A stretch of 64,000 nt of DNA from Opitutales bacterium (GCA_017546455.1 JAFYWY010000017.1:1-64000); one strand, 5' to 3'; counted from the stretch's first letter, positions 32,650 through 64,000 are shown. Notes: generated by a model not told the origin, from the sequence alone. Program-made: numbers and translations.

Positions 32650-33612
32650 TTAATCTTCCCGGACGATGCGAAAGCCCAAGTCGTCTTCGAGTTTTGACGG
32701 AGGCATTCCCGCGTCCCGGCATTCCGTGCGGCAGTGCATGCGCGATGAGCGGAAGGAGCCGCCTTTCACGGCTTTGACGGAGGGGTGCTTGTTCAGCGGG
32801 GAAGCAGTCCATTCCCGGCAATTTCCCCACATGTCGATGGCTCCGCAGGCGGACAGTGTCCGGGCATAAGTGTCTACGGAGCTTGTCGTCGAGCTTTTCC
32901 CGCAGTTAAATTCGGCGTCCTTGGGCATATGTCCGGCTGCGAGTTCCCATTCTTCGGCAGTCGGAAGGCGGTAGCGTTGGGCGTTTGAGCGTGCGCTGAG
33001 CCATGCGCAATAGGCTTGAGCGTCGTAAAAAGAAACCATGGTTACGGGATGGCGATTCTTCCCGGCGGGGATTTTCCCCTCCGGCCAATATTGGGGGGCT
33101 TTCCGGCCGCTTTCCTTGATAAATGCGGCGTATTCTTCGCAGGTTACCGGAGTGTAGGCGATGGAGACGTTTTGGGCTGCGCCGATTAGGGGAAGAAAGC
33201 CGTCTCGGGATCGACGTGAGTCGGGTCCCAGGCGCGGGTCCGTGAAGCGGCGCATGCTCTGCTCAATTCGATTTTTCCGGTCGCGTACGACTTCGTCGAC
33301 AATTGCTTCCATCTCACGAATTTTATGGCTGTGGCGCGCCGTTTGTTTCAGCTCTCGCAATTTTGCCTGTTTGCGGGCGATAACTTTGTCGTAGTTGATT
33401 TCCACCTGTTTTCTTAAGGCTGTACGATTCTTTTCGCTCGAATCCCGGCGATAAGCGGCAATTAACGCCTTTGTGGTTTCATCGAGTTCCGGACGCTCTT
33501 TTTCAATTGTCGTGCGCCGATGGTGCGGTGCGGCTTCGTTTGTATTTGCCGGAGCCGCGAGGAGCGGAATAGGGGAGAAGGAGGCGAGTGTGAGAAGGAG
33601 TACTTTTTTCAT
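32650..33612 (-). CDS. Exported FGE/SUMF1-domain protein
   Basis: The 320-residue protein has a signal peptide (MKKVLLLTLASFSPIPLLAA). A charged helical region, likely coiled coil, spans about 35 to 125. A formylglycine-generating-enzyme-like C-terminal domain follows: YTPVTCEEYAAFI, HPVTMVSFYDAQAYCAWLS, YRLPTAEEWELAAG, DMWGNCREWT, GGSFRSSRMHCR and DDLGFRIV. In most bacterial proteins of this kind the domain is structural or binding rather than sulfatase-activating. It is the last chromosomal gene before the prophage border. Confidence 0.8.
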   Translation of the reverse strand: MKKVLLLTLASFSPIPLLAAPANTNEAAPHHRRTTIEKERPELDETTKALIAAYRRDSSEKNRTALRKQVEINYDKVIARKQAKLRELKQTARHSHKIREMEAIVDEVVRDRKNRIEQSMRRFTDPRLGPDSRRSRDGFLPLIGAAQNVSIAYTPVTCEEYAAFIKESGRKAPQYWPEGKIPAGKNRHPVTMVSFYDAQAYCAWLSARSNAQRYRLPTAEEWELAAGHMPKDAEFNCGKSSTTSSVDTYARTLSACGAIDMWGNCREWTASPLNKHPSVKAVKGGSFRSSRMHCRTECRDAGMPPSKLEDDLGFRIVRED

Positions 33613-55238: not shown

Positions 55239-55709
55239 ATGAGTTTTTGGGGCAAAATTAAGAAAGAGGTTTCCCGTTTCGGGGACAAAATGAATTTTGA
55301 CCGTAGCCGTAAGGCGTGGTCTGCGACGATTGCTGGAACGGCCGTTGGTACGGTTGCCGGGGCGATTGGCGGTACGATTGCCGGTGGTGGGCTTGGGCCC
55401 GGTACGGCGATTGGCGGCGTTGCCGGCGCGGCTGCCGGCTATGCGGCCGGCTCGGTTGCCGGGGATCAGATGGACGCGATTGATTCGGCCAATGAGCGTA
55501 CGGCGAAGCTTCAAGAGCGGGCGATTACGATGGCTTCCCGTGTTGAGGGCGAGCTTTCGTCGAACAATACGGAGGATGCGGCTCTGAATGACATGGAGCG
55601 TGAGCGCCGTGCGCGTTTGGCGGCTTCGTATTCGCTGTCGGCGACCCGTGGGGTGTTTACTTCTTCGAAATCGAGTTCGGCTTCGGGCCGTCGTAGTACG
55701 TTGGGCTAA
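55239..55709 (+). CDS. Gly-rich late protein B (glycine-zipper type)
   Basis: Preceded by GGAGG; 156 residues. TAVGTVAGAIGGTIAGGGLG and IGGVAGAAAGYAAGSVAG are repeated small-residue (GxxxG) hydrophobic segments typical of membrane-pore glycine zippers. It shares the ASYSLSxTR motif with the gene before it. Its stop overlaps the portal start as TAATG. Confidence 0.6.
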   Translation: MSFWGKIKKEVSRFGDKMNFDRSRKAWSATIAGTAVGTVAGAIGGTIAGGGLGPGTAIGGVAGAAAGYAAGSVAGDQMDAIDSANERTAKLQERAITMASRVEGELSSNNTEDAALNDMERERRARLAASYSLSATRGVFTSSKSSSASGRRSTLG

Positions 55710-57415
55710 TGGAGCAGGGCAACACAGAGTCTTTGGTTCCGCCGAGTATCGTTGAGCGCATGCTCAGCGTGGCGGACGATTTGCGAGAAGAAGCGGCTTG
55801 TCGTGAGGCTGCCTGGCAGCAATGTCGTCGTTATGGGTTCCAGGTTTGGGATCCGTCGTCGTCCACGCCGCCGGATTCGAACACGCGTTATGTTCCGCAG
55901 CAGGACTCTTTGCCGGCTCAGTGTGCGTGGCGTGCTGCGATGTACCTGCATGCCAATACGGTTGGGGTAGGTCAGACGTTTTTCCGTTTGGACGTTGACG
56001 ATGCGACACGCATGGGCTTGGGGCCGGAGAGTGCCGAGTTGAAGCAGCTGCGGGATTTGACGTTGCCGCTGATGCGTGAGATGTCCACGACTAATTTTTC
56101 GTCGGTTTTGATGTCGGCGTTCAACGACAAGACTGTCCTTGGCACGGCTGTCGGGTACGTTGAGTTCAACGAAATGACGCGCAGCCTGGAGTATTCGTCG
56201 TATCAGGTTGGCAAGGAGTGCTACTTGTCGTCGAATTCTCGCGGCAAGCCGGATACGTTTAGCCGGACGTTTACGTTGACTGTGAAGCAGGCGGTCGAGC
56301 GCTATGGAGATCGTGTCGGGCCGGAAGTTTTGAAGCTGGCTTCGAAGCCGGAAACGCTGAAAGAGAAGATTGAGTACGTTTGGATTGTTTATCCGCGTAA
56401 GGTGTTCGGAGAGAAGGTTTCGAAGCCGACGGATAAGATGCCCGTCGTTCCGGCTTGTGAGAAGCCGTGGGGGCACCTGATTTTGGACAGGCGCAACAAG
56501 GTTGCGGTTGACGTGGGTGGGTATGATTCGTTCCCGTTTGCTTCTTCTGTTTGGGGACACTTGCCGAATTCTGTTTATGGCTGGGGCCCGATTGAAATGT
56601 CTCTTTCGGACGTTAAGTATTTGGGCCGCTTGAAGTTCAAGCACGCCGAAGCGATTGATCGCCAGGTCGATCCGGCCGTTATTGTTCCGTACTCGTGGGA
56701 CGGCTTTGATTCGTCTCCGGGAGCTCGCAACTACATTGAGGGCAACGGGGTTGTCCGTGATATGTTTGTGCAGTTGGAACCGCCGCGAGTGGTTAGCGAC
56801 ATTACGCCTCAGCAGCAGCAGTGCTTGCAGAACATCCGCAATAACTGTCTGTTGGACGCGTTTGAAACGTTTGACGCTTACACGAAGACGATGACGGCGA
56901 CTGAAGCTCGCGGCCGCGTCGGCCAGTCTGTTCGCGCCATTGCTCCGATTGTCCACGCGATTCACACGGACTTCCTGAGCGTCCTGATTAAGCGCAGCTT
57001 GGACTTGTTGATTGAGAACGGCGTGCTTGGGACGGGTCTTCCTGAGGGCATCCGCCGTGAGAACGTCGAGATTAAGTACGTTTCGGTGCTTGCGTCGATG
57101 GTTTTGGACGGCGAAACGAACAAGCTTCGGGACTTTTTTGCGAATTGCCTTGAGTTTGCGAACTCTCGTCAGGCGATGGGCGACATGTTCGACGTGTACT
57201 TCGACGTTGATAAGGTTTTCGAGCACATGGCGGACTTTTTCTCTATCCCGCAGGACGTTATTCGCACGAAAACCGAGCGTCAGAAGAAGCGCAAGGAGCT
57301 TGAGGAATCGATGATGGCGGCCCAGCAGCAGCAACAGGAAGAAAAAATCCTGTCCGGACTGGATCCGCAGGCACGATCGGCACCTGGCAGCTTCGCTGAG
57401 CGGTCGGGCTTCTAA
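55709..57415 (+). CDS. Portal (head-tail connector), T7/Bbp podovirus type
   Basis: The 568-residue product matches podovirus head-tail connector proteins in length and layout. LPAQCAWRAAMYLHANTVGVGQ and YVEFNEMTRSLEYSSYQVG are followed by YGWGPIEMSLSDVKYLGRLK, and TATEARGRVGQSV is typical of this portal family. It forms the dodecameric ring through which DNA passes. A Gln-rich C-terminus (MMAAQQQQQEEK) ends it. Its presence with the fibre N-terminus argues for a short-tailed phage. Confidence 0.88.
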   Translation: MEQGNTESLVPPSIVERMLSVADDLREEAACREAAWQQCRRYGFQVWDPSSSTPPDSNTRYVPQQDSLPAQCAWRAAMYLHANTVGVGQTFFRLDVDDATRMGLGPESAELKQLRDLTLPLMREMSTTNFSSVLMSAFNDKTVLGTAVGYVEFNEMTRSLEYSSYQVGKECYLSSNSRGKPDTFSRTFTLTVKQAVERYGDRVGPEVLKLASKPETLKEKIEYVWIVYPRKVFGEKVSKPTDKMPVVPACEKPWGHLILDRRNKVAVDVGGYDSFPFASSVWGHLPNSVYGWGPIEMSLSDVKYLGRLKFKHAEAIDRQVDPAVIVPYSWDGFDSSPGARNYIEGNGVVRDMFVQLEPPRVVSDITPQQQQCLQNIRNNCLLDAFETFDAYTKTMTATEARGRVGQSVRAIAPIVHAIHTDFLSVLIKRSLDLLIENGVLGTGLPEGIRRENVEIKYVSVLASMVLDGETNKLRDFFANCLEFANSRQAMGDMFDVYFDVDKVFEHMADFFSIPQDVIRTKTERQKKRKELEESMMAAQQQQQEEKILSGLDPQARSAPGSFAERSGF

Positions 57416-58383: not shown

Positions 58384-59316
58384 ATGGAAAACGAAGACAA
58401 CACAACTACTACGACTACGACAACGACTGAGCCGGCGGCAACGGAGAACAAGGCCGTTGAGAATCCGGCAACGGAAAAGCCGGCCGAAACTAAGGCTATG
58501 GAGACGAAGCCGGCGGAAAAGGGGCGTTCGAGCATTTTTGCTTCGGAAGCTAAGCCGGCAACGCACTGGGCGGACTCTCTGCCGGAAGAATTGCGCGGGA
58601 ACGCCGAGCTTCGCAAGTTTAAGGATTCGACTGAGGCCCTTAAAGCCTATGTGAATTTGGTTCCGATGATCGGCCGCAAGGGGCTGGCAGCTCCGGCCGA
58701 CGTAAACGATCAGGTGGCTATGGACGCTTATTTTAAGGCTCGCCGTGGTTCCGTCGAAACTCCGGACGCTTATTCCCGTAAGTTCAGCTCGGAAGATTTG
58801 GTCGGCATGGACAAAGAGGCGTTTGATACGATTTCGGCCTTTATGTTTGCGAACGGCTTCTCCGACATTGAGCACGGCAAGACGCTGGACTTGATTGCCG
58901 GTTTGCGTGAGCGCGAGGCTGCCCGATGGGAAGAAGAAAACGAAGCTCGCTATCAGAAGTGTGTGCGCGAGCTGAAGAACGACTGGGGCGACGAATATGA
59001 CGCGAACCTGAAAAAGGTTCAGAATTTCATGTCCAAGTTCCCGGGTGCGTTGAAAGCATTACAAACTTATGGCCTTGAGAACGATGCGGAGATGTGCCGC
59101 ATGTTCTTGGCGGCGGCTCGTGGTGTTTCCGAAGCCAGCAAACCGCGTGACACGGCATCGGTGCAGTCTCCGAAAGACCTTATGAAAGAGATTGATTCTT
59201 TGATGAAAGAGAAGTCTTTCAGTGATCCGAATTCTGCCGGGTACGCTTTGGCCCAGCGCCGTTTCAATGAGCTTATGCAGCGCAAGGCTGCCCTGCGTGC
59301 GCAGGGACTACTTTAG
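58384..59316 (+). CDS. Putative capsid scaffold protein
   Basis: The 310-residue product has a low-complexity acidic and Thr-rich N-terminus (nine Thr near residue 7, then EN/PAETK repeats). A helical body follows (HWADSLPEELRGNAELRKF, EALKAYVNLVPMIGRKGL, WGDEYDANLKKVQNFMSKFP) that is typical of podovirus scaffold/assembly proteins (T7 gp9-like). In most relatives the major capsid gene comes next, but here a terminator and tail-fibre gene follow instead. Confidence 0.75.
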   Translation: MENEDNTTTTTTTTTEPAATENKAVENPATEKPAETKAMETKPAEKGRSSIFASEAKPATHWADSLPEELRGNAELRKFKDSTEALKAYVNLVPMIGRKGLAAPADVNDQVAMDAYFKARRGSVETPDAYSRKFSSEDLVGMDKEAFDTISAFMFANGFSDIEHGKTLDLIAGLREREAARWEEENEARYQKCVRELKNDWGDEYDANLKKVQNFMSKFPGALKALQTYGLENDAEMCRMFLAAARGVSEASKPRDTASVQSPKDLMKEIDSLMKEKSFSDPNSAGYALAQRRFNELMQRKAALRAQGLL

Positions 59317-59370: not shown

Positions 59371-59542
59371 ATGGCAAAAAGCGGCTCCCCGTGGTGCGCA
59401 TTGTAAAGAGGCGTGGGGAGCATTCTTGCCGTGAGTATTGGCGTGGAGGTTTTTAAAGACAAGCTATTTGCGAGCTTATGGCTGGAACGTGAAAAAGGTT
59501 TTGTTCGCTCGTATAAAGGGTGCAAACAGAAAGCCGCCTATT

Positions 59543-62500
59543 ATGAGTGAAACTTACCAAAAACATATCGTCTCTGTGAACGGCAGTGGAACCGTTTCTA
59601 TTCCTTTTGAATGGAGCGATCCGAGCGAAGTTTACGTTTATTGCTATGGCTCCGTTGGCCCGTACACGGGAACGTTGGCCGGAATGATTGCGAACGGTTG
59701 GGTTTCGCTTTTGGGCGCAGCCGGTGGCGACGTTTTGACGCACTTCCAGGCTGGGCAGCGCGTATGGATGGTGTTGAGCCGACAAACTGCGCTGGATTCG
59801 TATTCGTCGTTGCGCGATCTGCTTAAAGCGATTGATGAATTGCGCGCCGAGATTCAGTGCACGTTCCGTGTTCCGGATGTTTTTCTGCCTGTGTTGGCGG
59901 CGTTCCCGGCAACCGAGCGAAAGGGCAAGGCGCTTGTCTTTGACGATAATGGCAATCCGGCGCTTGGTGATGTGGCTGGCGGCGACGTAAAGACGGCCCG
60001 TGATGAGACCTTGCAGGCGGCTTCGGACGTTAAGGCCCGAGCGGAACAAACGGCCGAGTCTGTAGAGGATGCGAAGCAGTGGGCTTTGAAGTCGGCTGAT
60101 GCTTATTCTCGTTTGGTCAGTGCTGCGGACGCGATTTTGAAAGCTACCGATGACGCCGTCGTCGGGTGCAAACAGGAAATTCAGCGCCTGCTGAACAACG
60201 CGGACGTCGCCGGGAGCGAAAAGCTGCGTGAATTGCAGGTTCGTTTTGAGCAGTATGTTGCTACGCTCGGTCAGGCGGTTTCTTCGGCCAGCGCCCAGTG
60301 GGATGCGTTGTTGTCCGGCGCTATGACGTCGATTTCCGAGGCTCGTGAAACGTCGGTTTTGAACGTCGAGAATTCCCGCGAAAGCGCTCTGAACGCAATG
60401 GGCGTGGAGCTGAACCATTCTTTGCGCGTGATTCGTGAGTGCGTTGAAGCGTATGGCCTTGAACTGAAAAATCAGACAAAAACCATGCTTGATGAGCTGC
60501 GCGAGGTCTATTCCCAGGAATGGGCCGACAGTGCAAAGCAGTGGGCGACGAAGTTTTCGGATCTTGAGAAAAGCATCGAAAACCGGTTGCAGTGGTCTGA
60601 CGTTCGCAGTGGCATTCAGACTCAGAGCATTCTTGGCTGGGACGAAATTTCGAATAAGGCGACTTCGAACGCCATGTACCTTGACGGTGTCGGCATCCGT
60701 GCGATTAGCCAGGGTGCGGATGTTTTGTTCCCGGTCAAAGGCGGGACGCTTGCGTTGCTTTCCGACGTGGACGAGAAGCTCGGCGATATTTCTTCCGACA
60801 CGTTTGCGTTGCGAGAAAACGGAACGATTAAGTCTCCGACGATTCTTGAGGGCAAGGCTTCTTCGCTTTGCTCGATCCCTGTTGCAGAAGTTCCGGAAAA
60901 CGCGGACAATGCGAGTTATGATGCGTTTCTCGGAACTTTGAATTCGGTTGGGATTGTCGGCGAAAGCATTATTCCTACGACGCTCTCGTTCTATCGCCGA
61001 AACGCAAACGGGTATGTTGATACCGACGTCCCGCGTTTCTTGCAGATTCGCCGTAGAGACGCGAATGGGAATTGGTACATCGCGTACAACTCTTGGAATG
61101 GCCTGGCTCCGAATTCTTTCCTTTTGGCCGGCGATGAAATGAAGTGGATTCTTTTCGAAGTTGCCGGAGGCCCGATCCCGGACGACGAAGTGATTTCCAT
61201 TACAGAAACTGACGATGAGGCCGGCACAAATTTGGTTTCCTGGGGGGCTAAAGCGACTCGCATTTATGGCGGTGGCATTGCTTCGGGAGCTGAAATCATT
61301 GAGTCGAACAGGGCTTCTCACGCTCCGTTGTTGAAGATGGATTTCTACTTGCTGTCCGATATTGCTACGAAAGGCGATGTCGAAGCGGTTGAGCTTTTGA
61401 AAGCTGATTTGGTGCACTTCCATGATATTTCTGACGTCACTAACTTGCAGACTCAGCTTGATTCAAAGGCTCCGAAGACGGCTCTTTCGAATTATCTCCC
61501 GTTCGCTGGGGGTACCTTGAGTGGCGACTTAACGATTGTGACTGGCTCCGGCGGGCTTCGTATGCCTAACGGAGCGAGCATTTTCGCTCCGAACGCTGGA
61601 ATTTATCCGATTACTGTTGATCTTGGCGGAAGTGTAAAACTTGCCGGAAACATGCTTGAGCTTCCGAATAGCGACGGAAGCAACATTGGGATTTATTTCA
61701 ATTACGACCCGTCAACTACTTCCGGCGATGGCCGCATCAATGTCTCTTTCTTTGGGTACAAGGGTGGGAGCATTTTCCCGGACATGACGTATAAATTCCG
61801 AGATGCCCTTGGGGGCGATACTACTGTTGCTACGCTTGGCGACCTTTCCGACTACGCTAAATATGGCACGACTGGCGATGAAACCGATATTTCGTTCGGG
61901 CAGCGATCGAGTGCTAAAGGCGGGTCTTCCGTAGCTATTGGTACTGCCGCTAAGGCGTTGGATAGCGGGGCGGTTGCATTTGGTTCAGCTGCTGAGGGGG
62001 AAGGTAGCTACTCTACTGCTCTTGGCGGTGCATCTTACGCAGCTGGCGAGTCTTCTGTTGCTGTTGGCGATAGTGCGTGTGCGTCCTCAAACTTTACAGT
62101 CACAGCTGGATATTGTGCAAACGTAGACGAGCCGGCAGAGGGTGCTATTGCTATCGGAGCTGAATCAAGTGCGTCTAATATACTCGGCGTTGCCATGGGG
62201 TACTCTTCGTTTACGGAGGGTGGCGCTTCTATTTCAATAGGCAGCAATTCTTATTCTTCAGGTTCCAGCGCTATCGCCTTAGGGTATAAAGCAAGTGCTG
62301 ATGACACGAATGCTATTTCGATTGGAACACAGTCTCATGCGAGCGCTCGATGTAATATTTCTATTGGCCACGATTCCCGTGCTGATGCCAGCGAATCTAT
62401 CGCAGTCGGGCTTTCTGCAAAATCATTAGGAGATAACTCCTGTGCTTTTGGTGCTATTTCCTGCGCGTCAGCGCATTACTCTTGTTCTATTGGTCGGGTG

Positions 62501-62962
62501 TCTTATGCTGGCGGGTCGTATGGAGTCTCTGTTGGTTATGCTGCCGCCTCCGGTTCGGAAGGCTCGACTGCTCTCGGTGCGTTTAGTGTAGCTAATGGAG
62601 TATGCTCGACTGCTGTTGGCTATGGCGCGACGGCTTGTGAGAGTGCTCAGGTTTTTGGCGCTTTTGGACGCAACGCGAATCCCGGGACTACTGTTATTTC
62701 TGCAATTTCCGACGCGTATTGTTGCAGTGTCTCGTCTATTGTTCAGCTGTATTTAATTACTGCTGGAAGCGATCTGTCTAAACAATATTGCGGTGGAGAG
62801 GCTGGCTTGGGGTTTATAGAAACAAGTGCTGCTGGACTTTCCGGGGAGCCGGAGATTATTCATAGCGGGACGAAAAAATTGTCAGACATTTTTACTGACA
62901 ATAAAGATACGTTTTCTCCCCAGATGGAGGCTGTCATTTCCTGTGGAAGTCCGTGTTGTTAA
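59543..62962 (+). CDS. Tail fibre: T7-like N-terminus, coiled coils, YadA-like head repeats
   Basis: From ATG 59543 (MSETYQKHIVSVNGS) the product has 1,139 residues. The first 130 residues match podovirus fibre N-termini that dock on the tail (SIPFEWSDPSEVYVYCY, SSLRDLLKAIDELRAEIQ). Long coiled-coil stretches follow (about 170 to 380), then a mixed part. From about residue 780 to 1,040 the sequence repeats units of the form SxAxGxxAxASGxxS, as in YadA-type trimeric-adhesin heads (IALGYKASADDTNAISIGTQ). A Cys-containing C-terminal tip ends it. It should form a trimeric receptor-binding spike. Confidence 0.85.
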   Translation: MSETYQKHIVSVNGSGTVSIPFEWSDPSEVYVYCYGSVGPYTGTLAGMIANGWVSLLGAAGGDVLTHFQAGQRVWMVLSRQTALDSYSSLRDLLKAIDELRAEIQCTFRVPDVFLPVLAAFPATERKGKALVFDDNGNPALGDVAGGDVKTARDETLQAASDVKARAEQTAESVEDAKQWALKSADAYSRLVSAADAILKATDDAVVGCKQEIQRLLNNADVAGSEKLRELQVRFEQYVATLGQAVSSASAQWDALLSGAMTSISEARETSVLNVENSRESALNAMGVELNHSLRVIRECVEAYGLELKNQTKTMLDELREVYSQEWADSAKQWATKFSDLEKSIENRLQWSDVRSGIQTQSILGWDEISNKATSNAMYLDGVGIRAISQGADVLFPVKGGTLALLSDVDEKLGDISSDTFALRENGTIKSPTILEGKASSLCSIPVAEVPENADNASYDAFLGTLNSVGIVGESIIPTTLSFYRRNANGYVDTDVPRFLQIRRRDANGNWYIAYNSWNGLAPNSFLLAGDEMKWILFEVAGGPIPDDEVISITETDDEAGTNLVSWGAKATRIYGGGIASGAEIIESNRASHAPLLKMDFYLLSDIATKGDVEAVELLKADLVHFHDISDVTNLQTQLDSKAPKTALSNYLPFAGGTLSGDLTIVTGSGGLRMPNGASIFAPNAGIYPITVDLGGSVKLAGNMLELPNSDGSNIGIYFNYDPSTTSGDGRINVSFFGYKGGSIFPDMTYKFRDALGGDTTVATLGDLSDYAKYGTTGDETDISFGQRSSAKGGSSVAIGTAAKALDSGAVAFGSAAEGEGSYSTALGGASYAAGESSVAVGDSACASSNFTVTAGYCANVDEPAEGAIAIGAESSASNILGVAMGYSSFTEGGASISIGSNSYSSGSSAIALGYKASADDTNAISIGTQSHASARCNISIGHDSRADASESIAVGLSAKSLGDNSCAFGAISCASAHYSCSIGRVSYAGGSYGVSVGYAAASGSEGSTALGAFSVANGVCSTAVGYGATACESAQVFGAFGRNANPGTTVISAISDAYCCSVSSIVQLYLITAGSDLSKQYCGGEAGLGFIETSAAGLSGEPEIIHSGTKKLSDIFTDNKDTFSPQMEAVISCGSPCC

Positions 62963-62974
62963 GGAGTTTTACTT

Positions 62975-63529
62975 ATGGAAAAACGATTGAAAAAACGAAA
63001 TGTTTTATCATTTGAGGAACCCAAGCCTCTTGAAGGTAAAAGGGTTTTGCTCATTGGAAGCGGAAGCGATTTGAATGGGCGTAAAATGGGTGACCGTATC
63101 TCGGCCGCAGAGTGCGAATGGGATATGATCGCCCGAGTCAACCGTCCTTACGGTGATGCCGAAGACGTTGGAAAGAGGCTCGACCTATGCTTCGTTTGTC
63201 GGCGTGTTTGGTTGAACCTGAACTTCAACCCGTCTTTCCTGCGCAACAATTTCAACGTTATTGCGTTTGACGATGGCGTTGGCTGCGAACAGGGGTACCG
63301 CTCTAAGGCGGCTCACGAAGCCAATATCGGCACAAAATCTTCTACTGGTTTTGCTGCTGCTTACTGGCTCCTTGAGCAAGGCGCTACCGTCGAAATCATC
63401 GGCTTTGGTTCCGGTGAAAACAAGTCGGTTAAAACCTATCCGGATGGCACGGTCGACAATAACCCGAACTACGACTGGGCTGCAGAGCGCCAATGGCTTG
63501 AATCTCAACCGAACGTTAAGTTCCTATGA
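62975..63529 (+). CDS. GT29 sialyltransferase-like protein
   Basis: AAGGAG lies 8 nt upstream of ATG 62975. The 184-residue product has a motif-L-like VLLIGSGSDLNGRKMGDRIS, MIARVNRPYGDAEDVGKRLD, a motif-S-like IGTKSSTGFAAAYWLL with VEIIGFGSG, and a terminal NYDWAAERQWL. These match the order of GT29 motifs L, S and VS. In the VS-like part the usual catalytic His is Tyr167 (NPNYDWAAE), so activity needs testing. GT29 enzymes transfer sialic acid or related sugars from CMP donors. It overlaps the CMP-sugar synthetase-like gene as ATGA. Confidence 0.65.
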   Translation: MEKRLKKRNVLSFEEPKPLEGKRVLLIGSGSDLNGRKMGDRISAAECEWDMIARVNRPYGDAEDVGKRLDLCFVCRRVWLNLNFNPSFLRNNFNVIAFDDGVGCEQGYRSKAAHEANIGTKSSTGFAAAYWLLEQGATVEIIGFGSGENKSVKTYPDGTVDNNPNYDWAAERQWLESQPNVKFL

Positions 63530-64000
63530 TCCATGTCTTAATTACAGTTAAGCCGAGCGAGCGCCTCCCGAATAAGAATCTATTCTTCTCTCAAAAGACG
63601 TTTGCATGGCTTTTTCAGGAGATTGCCTACATCCAAGAGGCCGTTAAGGTCTATACGGTTGGCTTCCGATCTGAGTTGCCGGAATGCCTCCCGTTTGGGT
63701 GGGAGCATATCGAGTGCGACACGGGTTCTCACTTGGAAGACTGTCGTTTTGCTTGTGACAAAATTGCAGCTATTCGAGGCTCGGCCATTAGTGGAGATGT
63801 GTTCGTCCAGCCGCTCCTTTCTCAGCCGTTTCGTCGGCAACGCCTCCTTGCAGATGCTGTGGCGGCGACGCGCGAACACGGTTCGGCCGTAAGTGTCTGC
63901 ATGGCGAAAGACTTGTCTTGGCGCAACGTTGTTGTTTCGGACGGAAAAGCTAAGCTTTGCGGCATTGAGCGCAGTGAGGATTTGCGTCCGTACCTTGACG
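63526..64000 (+). CDS. CMP-sugar (nonulosonate/Kdo-type) synthetase-like protein, truncated by window end
   Basis: The visible 158 residues begin MIHVLITVKPSERLPNKNLF, matching the N-terminal nucleotide-binding motif of CMP-sialate and CMP-Kdo synthetases (consensus like SKRLPNKNL). GDVFVQPLLSQPFRRQRLLA occupies the place of the family's LQPTSPLR stretch. These enzymes join CTP and a nine- or eight-carbon keto sugar. It is translationally coupled to the GT29-like gene. The catalytic C-terminal half lies outside the window. Confidence 0.6.
   Translation, partial: MIHVLITVKPSERLPNKNLFFSQKTFAWLFQEIAYIQEAVKVYTVGFRSELPECLPFGWEHIECDTGSHLEDCRFACDKIAAIRGSAISGDVFVQPLLSQPFRRQRLLADAVAATREHGSAVSVCMAKDLSWRNVVVSDGKAKLCGIERSEDLRPYLD

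Follow-up and report, generated by a model that had tools for sequence, protein, structure and literature searches.

A putative two-gene CMP-ulosonate cassette behind the tail fibre of a short-tailed prophage

Directly behind the tail fibre gene of a short-tailed prophage lie two overlapping genes, one encoding a GT29-like protein of 184 residues and the other a CMP-ulosonate synthetase-like protein of 214 residues. We tentatively read them as a two-gene CMP-ulosonate cassette of the late operon, in which a sugar would be charged by one product and transferred by the other, with the virion a somewhat likelier acceptor than the host surface. CMP-sugar-dependent transfer of some kind appears probable, and given such transfer the virion would be slightly favoured as its target.

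Gene order and coupling in the late operon

The window, that is the whole stretch of DNA analysed here, comprises positions 1-64000 of a contig of 88,932 bases, which belongs to a genome of 2.15 Mb that is 98% complete. The prophage is of the short-tailed phage type and its late operon is anchored by the head-tail connector. As listed in Table 1, the order is portal, scaffold-like, fibre, the pair, capsid-like and tail genes, all on one strand except for a single inverted DUF3800 gene, which bears out the assignment of fibre and pair to a late operon in the earlier note. Its further description of this region, namely the length and YadA-like head of the fibre, the intergenic distance, the overlap and the coordinates, was correct throughout when the sequence was re-read.

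Table 1. Features of the late operon around the gene pair (positions in the window unless marked as contig positions)
Feature	Position	Strand	Evidence and remarks
Portal (head-tail connector)	55709..57415	+	Pfam PF12236, E 4.9e-61; PHROG 332, E 4.7e-66
Small genes	between portal and scaffold-like gene		
Scaffold-like protein	58384..59316	+	PHROG 3742, E 7e-18; 50% identity in L020; conserved in sister prophages
Tail fibre, 1,139 aa	59543..62962	+	PF05658, E 7.5e-16; 28% identity to L020 fibre, in two blocks
GT29-like protein, 184 aa	62975..63529	+	Profile E 1.7e-14; HHalign 98.1%; model and fold search; residue table
CMP-ulosonate synthetase-like protein (cytidylyltransferase), 214 aa	63526..64170 (contig; window part 63526..64000)	+	HHalign 95.0%; model of residues 1-158
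Terminator-like hairpin, 11 pairs then T	64178-64204 (contig)		Strong; behind the pair
DUF3800 gene	64321-65355 (contig)	- (inverted)	Between the pair and the capsid-like gene
Capsid-like protein with C-terminal BACON domain, then tail proteins	downstream of DUF3800 gene	same as pair	

The fibre gene begins with ATG, an alternative TTG start at 59438 being possible, and its product carries YadA_head repeats. The N-terminal stem and the middle domain are common to the fibres of the sister prophages described below; the C-terminal YadA-like head is not shared. Its stop codon is separated by 12 nt, containing TAAGGAG, from the ATG of the GT29-like gene, whose own end overlaps the start of the synthetase-like gene by 4 nt (ATGA). 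The edge of the window cuts the latter gene at residue 158 of 214. No promoter-like site was found on the coding strand of the pair by a consensus scan, which is weak evidence. Together with the hairpin behind the pair this suggests that the two genes are probably expressed with the late transcripts and not during lysogeny.

The genus includes a sister genome, G012, whose two prophages (L020 and L021) have the portal (53% and 37%) and the capsid protein (72% and 38%) in common with the window prophage, along with parts of the fibre. Behind the fibre, L020 carries a gene for a 405-aa protein and, inverted, one for 194 aa, and L021 a gene for a 638-aa protein and acetyltransferase-like genes, among them an inverted GNAT gene. 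The slot behind the fibre is thus variable, and the pair is cargo of the window prophage. The place of the inverted DUF3800 gene is likewise taken by the other inverted genes in the sisters, as expected of a cargo site. Neither gene had an orthologue in single-sequence searches of IMG/VR, INPHARED, the GTDB representatives, 79 genomes of the family and 373 of the order. Queries with the portal and with the capsid protein brought up no relatives from IMG/VR, and the alignments A1 and A8, used as viral queries, gave no matches. Two matches were discarded as spurious, one to Pantoea phage ROV85, confined to 54 residues inside a large protein, and one to G076, which is antisense to another gene.

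Elsewhere in the prophage, a reading frame that stays open for over 2,900 codons (L002:11267-20000, in the numbering that places the synthetase-like gene at L002:1526-2170) lies downstream of the tail genes and perhaps encodes a giant internal virion protein or a polyvalent protein. Near the phage replication genes, on the minus strand at 32650-33612 of the window, lies a gene whose product has an FGE-sulfatase (C-type-lectin-like) domain, a type often diversified by diversity-generating retroelements.

Families and folds of the two proteins

The Pfam family PF00777 matched the 184-aa protein at residues 10-74 only, which cover motif L, with an E value of 2.6e-4 and 20.9 bits, below the curated cut-off of 23 bits. 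Profiles extended the homology to GT29 over the full length of the protein: a profile of cellular GT29-like proteins gave an E value of 1.7e-4, and one of short viral GT29-like proteins scored as given in Table 1 over residues 19-177. The HHalign probability compares with 1.9% for the best shuffle, and none of 100 shuffles came near the profile score of either protein of the pair. Sialylmotifs L (residues about 23-56) and S (119-130) are both clear, and the positions of motifs III and VS follow in order, though with Thr and Tyr in place of their two His. An AlphaFold2 model (alignment of 24; pLDDT 77, pTM 0.78) has the GT29 fold: the first 13 PDB entries by Z score were all GT29 structures (Z 11.0-12.0), with an rmsd of 3.5-4.7 over 160-176 residues. 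This model was built with viral GT29 relatives in the alignment and is not independent of them, whereas the sequence tests are. The GT42 enzymes Cst-I and Cst-II ranked next, just below the GT29 structures (Z 10.2-10.7); a GT42 identity was rejected because the sequence profiles favour GT29. No membrane anchor was evident in the protein.

For the 214-aa protein no match was obtained in Pfam (even at E 5), NCBIfam, PHROGs or PDB sequence searches, and its HMMER profile scores were not significant (E 0.34 and 0.44). The family call drew instead on the HHalign comparison with shuffled controls, the order of the motifs, the fold and the gene neighbourhood. Against a combined profile of cellular and viral NeuA/KdsB proteins, HHalign gave a score of 53.8 compared with 22.9 for the best shuffle, indicating homology to the CMP-ulosonate synthetases (CTP_transf_3, PF02348). 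The motifs SERLPNKN, QP....PFR, RSEDL, GAIY and DID appear in family order, and the RLPNKN motif noticed earlier is indeed present, within SERLPNKNL. Compared with (A)RxGSKRxPxKN, motif I has one residue deleted, with Arg aligned to Lys and Lys to Glu; DID would correspond to the metal-binding DxD. A model of residues 1-158 of the 214 (pLDDT 70), which is alignment-guided with NeuA relatives and of moderate confidence, showed a cytidylyltransferase fold and matched KdsB, TarI, NeuA, CMP-Pse synthetase and IspD in the PDB with Z scores up to 11.4. The earlier note had named the GT29 assignment and a nucleotide-binding fold in the partner beforehand as the points on which its reading would stand or fall. 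The former was upheld by profiles, shuffles, model and fold search, and the latter is supported by model and HHalign.

Recurrence of the pairing and supply of the sugar

Among 41 viral loci fetched from IMG/VR by a GT29-only query, 17 contained a NeuA/KdsB-like gene in the flanks of the GT29-like gene. In 13 the two genes were no more than 150 nt apart and in most cases overlapped, by 1-11 nt; about 8 of these are independent once near-identical copies are subtracted. Gene order and sizes were the same as in the window for L075, L076 and L082 (about 178 and 216 aa in L075 and L082). Both gene types are also present in LR756508.1, a 484-kb uncultured phage. This recurrence in unrelated viral contigs supports the functional pairing proposed in the earlier note and identifies the combination as a recurrent viral module, of which the window pair is a minimal, divergent copy without a sugar synthase. 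We found no description of such recurrent viral pairs in the literature searched. For phage GT29 or nonulosonic acid genes there was no direct precedent beyond the annotation of an 'alpha-2,3-/2,8-sialyltransferase' in Azotobacter phage TayeBlu.

NeuB is encoded nearby in L075, L082, L089 and L110, a NeuC-type epimerase in L089 and a DAHP/KdsA-family synthase in L108. Viral GT29-like genes thus sit in ulosonic-acid pathways. Several are located within virion modules: that of L089 is flanked by the major head protein and tape measure genes, that of L087 by terminase and portal, and those of L104 and L113 lie downstream of the terminase and after the portal, respectively. Some viral GT29/NeuA pairs lie in replication or glycan clusters away from virion genes, as in L083 with its DNA polymerase neighbour.

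Two of these loci may be described further. L089 (96-12492; IMGVR_UViG_3300030329_004383) contains genes for portal and major head protein, followed by GT-like proteins, the GT29-like protein, NeuB, the NeuC-type epimerase and a NeuA-like protein in near-overlapping order, and then by the tape measure protein; all steps towards nonulosonic acid transfer are apparently encoded here among virion genes. At L108:5986-8917 the GT29-like gene is clustered with the synthase and a CMP-sugar synthetase-like gene, which suggests a Kdo-like rather than a sialic pathway.

No match to NeuB, the synthase that a complete nonulosonic acid pathway needs, was found anywhere in the 98% complete host genome, prophage included. 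The earlier suggestion that the phage makes a sialic-acid-like sugar is not supported for this reason, and self-made sialic acid was rejected. Instead, the host genome encodes KdsB and KdtA for activation and transfer of Kdo, so CMP-Kdo should be available. With these two genes present and NeuB absent, Kdo or scavenged sialic acid is a likelier substrate than self-made sialic acid. The GT29 fold family extends to sugars other than sialic acid, since its plant member RCKT1 probably transfers Kdo (PMC12168206).

Active site, acceptor and relation to known systems

In the proposed cassette the 214-aa protein would charge a 3-deoxy-ulosonic acid with CTP to yield the CMP-sugar, the acid being drawn from the Kdo of the host LPS pathway or from scavenged sialic acid. 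During late gene expression the GT29-like protein would then transfer the sugar to an acceptor. The distance of 12 nt to the fibre gene, the hairpin and the lack of a promoter-like site for the pair make the fibre or another virion component a somewhat likelier acceptor, followed by a host surface glycan. In favour of this cassette we counted the families and folds of both proteins, the recurrence of the pairing, the GT29-like genes in virion modules, KdsB and KdtA of the host, and RCKT1. Against it we counted the changes at the VS His, the motif III His and the motif L Asn, the divergence of the partner, the missing synthase and orthologues, and the viral pairs in replication or glycan clusters such as L083.

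The main weakness of a transferase mechanism is Tyr166, whose codon is TAC in what is probably a metagenome-assembled genome. It occupies the position of the VS His, the catalytic base of GT29 (PMC10225777), and this replacement, seen already in the earlier note, was borne out when the protein was aligned with about 50 further GT29-like ORFs of viruses and 5 cellular proteins. In addition, Thr154 replaces the motif III His and Ser29 the motif L Asn. Ser at the latter position also occurs in L108, L110 and L111, and Thr at the motif III position in the L079/L103 group; the VS His is otherwise absent only from L083 (Ile) and one ORF of L084 (Gln, alignment uncertain). Since the catalytic His is missing, we filed the protein as GT29-like and not as an active GT29 sialyltransferase. 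The three changed positions, the very high divergence of both genes and the missing synthase would also fit a degenerate or repurposed pair, in which the GT29-like protein is a pseudoenzyme, binding a CMP-sugar or glycan or assisting fibre assembly, or the pair as a whole is decaying cargo. However, both frames are intact and tightly coupled, and the GT29-like protein retains motif S, the R-x-N residues and Glu171. Moreover, L083 (5914-7313) carries changes at all three of these positions (Asn to Lys, His to Ser and His to Ile) and keeps a synthetase-like gene directly behind, a single case that simple decay would not readily explain. We consider degeneration or repurposing rather unlikely. 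More speculatively, and in our view doubtful, the window and L083 proteins may form a GT29-like lineage that lost the VS His yet remained coupled to a synthetase, using a different catalytic base or serving a CMP-sugar-dependent non-catalytic role, for example in fibre or virion assembly.

Unlikely, too, is modification of the host surface, whereby the pair would decorate LPS or a different glycan of the envelope with a residue resembling Kdo or sialic acid and mask the receptor of the adjacent fibre, so that superinfecting phages are excluded or released phages are kept off debris. In favour of this reading, the host should make CMP-Kdo and has a Kdo transferase, the sister prophages carry varying cargo behind their fibres, and serotype conversion by phage glycosyltransferases is a known phenomenon (PMC12619734). 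Against it, serotype-conversion cassettes usually include flippase and membrane GT genes, and neither was seen at the pair. The scans for promoter and terminator, weak as they are, also point to late and not lysogenic expression. Finally, it is very improbable that chance motifs and alignment-guided models have misled us about the two families: the single-sequence Pfam score is weak and GT29 or NeuA relatives in the alignments bias the models, but the models play no part in the profile and shuffle controls, and a chance match of two neighbouring genes to the two halves of one pathway is very unlikely.

How a cell is recognised depends on ulosonic acids such as sialic acid and Kdo. If the cassette reading is true, phages that activate and transfer them beside virion genes could alter their own fibres or the receptors of their hosts. 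The recurrent viral pairs, some with NeuB or NeuC and one lying among head and tail genes (major head protein and tape measure), provide a set of testable loci.

Among known systems, the GT29 sialyltransferases ST3Gal1, ST6GalNAc2, ST8SiaIII and ST6Gal1 and the bacterial GT29-like proteins resemble the 184-aa protein in the order of the sialylmotif positions and in fold, and the partner gene would supply a putative maker of the CMP-sugar donor. They differ in length (about 270-300 residues), whereas the window protein is shorter, has no evident anchor, carries Tyr for the VS His and falls under the Pfam cut-off. Cst-I and Cst-II of Campylobacter (GT42), soluble bacterial enzymes using CMP-Neu5Ac, have the same overall fold; Cst-II has a His base, which is without counterpart in the window protein. 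The partner shares motif order and, for residues 1-158, the cytidylyltransferase fold with KdsB, NeuA and PseF, but it has no Pfam match and a motif I that is one residue shorter, with Lys and Glu at the usual Arg and Lys positions. In mycobacteriophages, experiments have demonstrated that phage glycosyltransferases modify the virion (Freeman et al. 2023, cited in PMC12619734), so that a phage-encoded transferase acts there on virion proteins, as the window protein may do; the passage on this work in PMC12619734 mentions no GT29-type enzyme or ulosonic acid. The viral pairs from IMG/VR (L075, L082, L083, L106 and the L074 group) are adjacent, overlapping, of similar size and partly in the same order as in the window; most of them, L075 included, keep the VS His and several carry NeuB, and only L083 clearly shares the loss of this His with the window protein.
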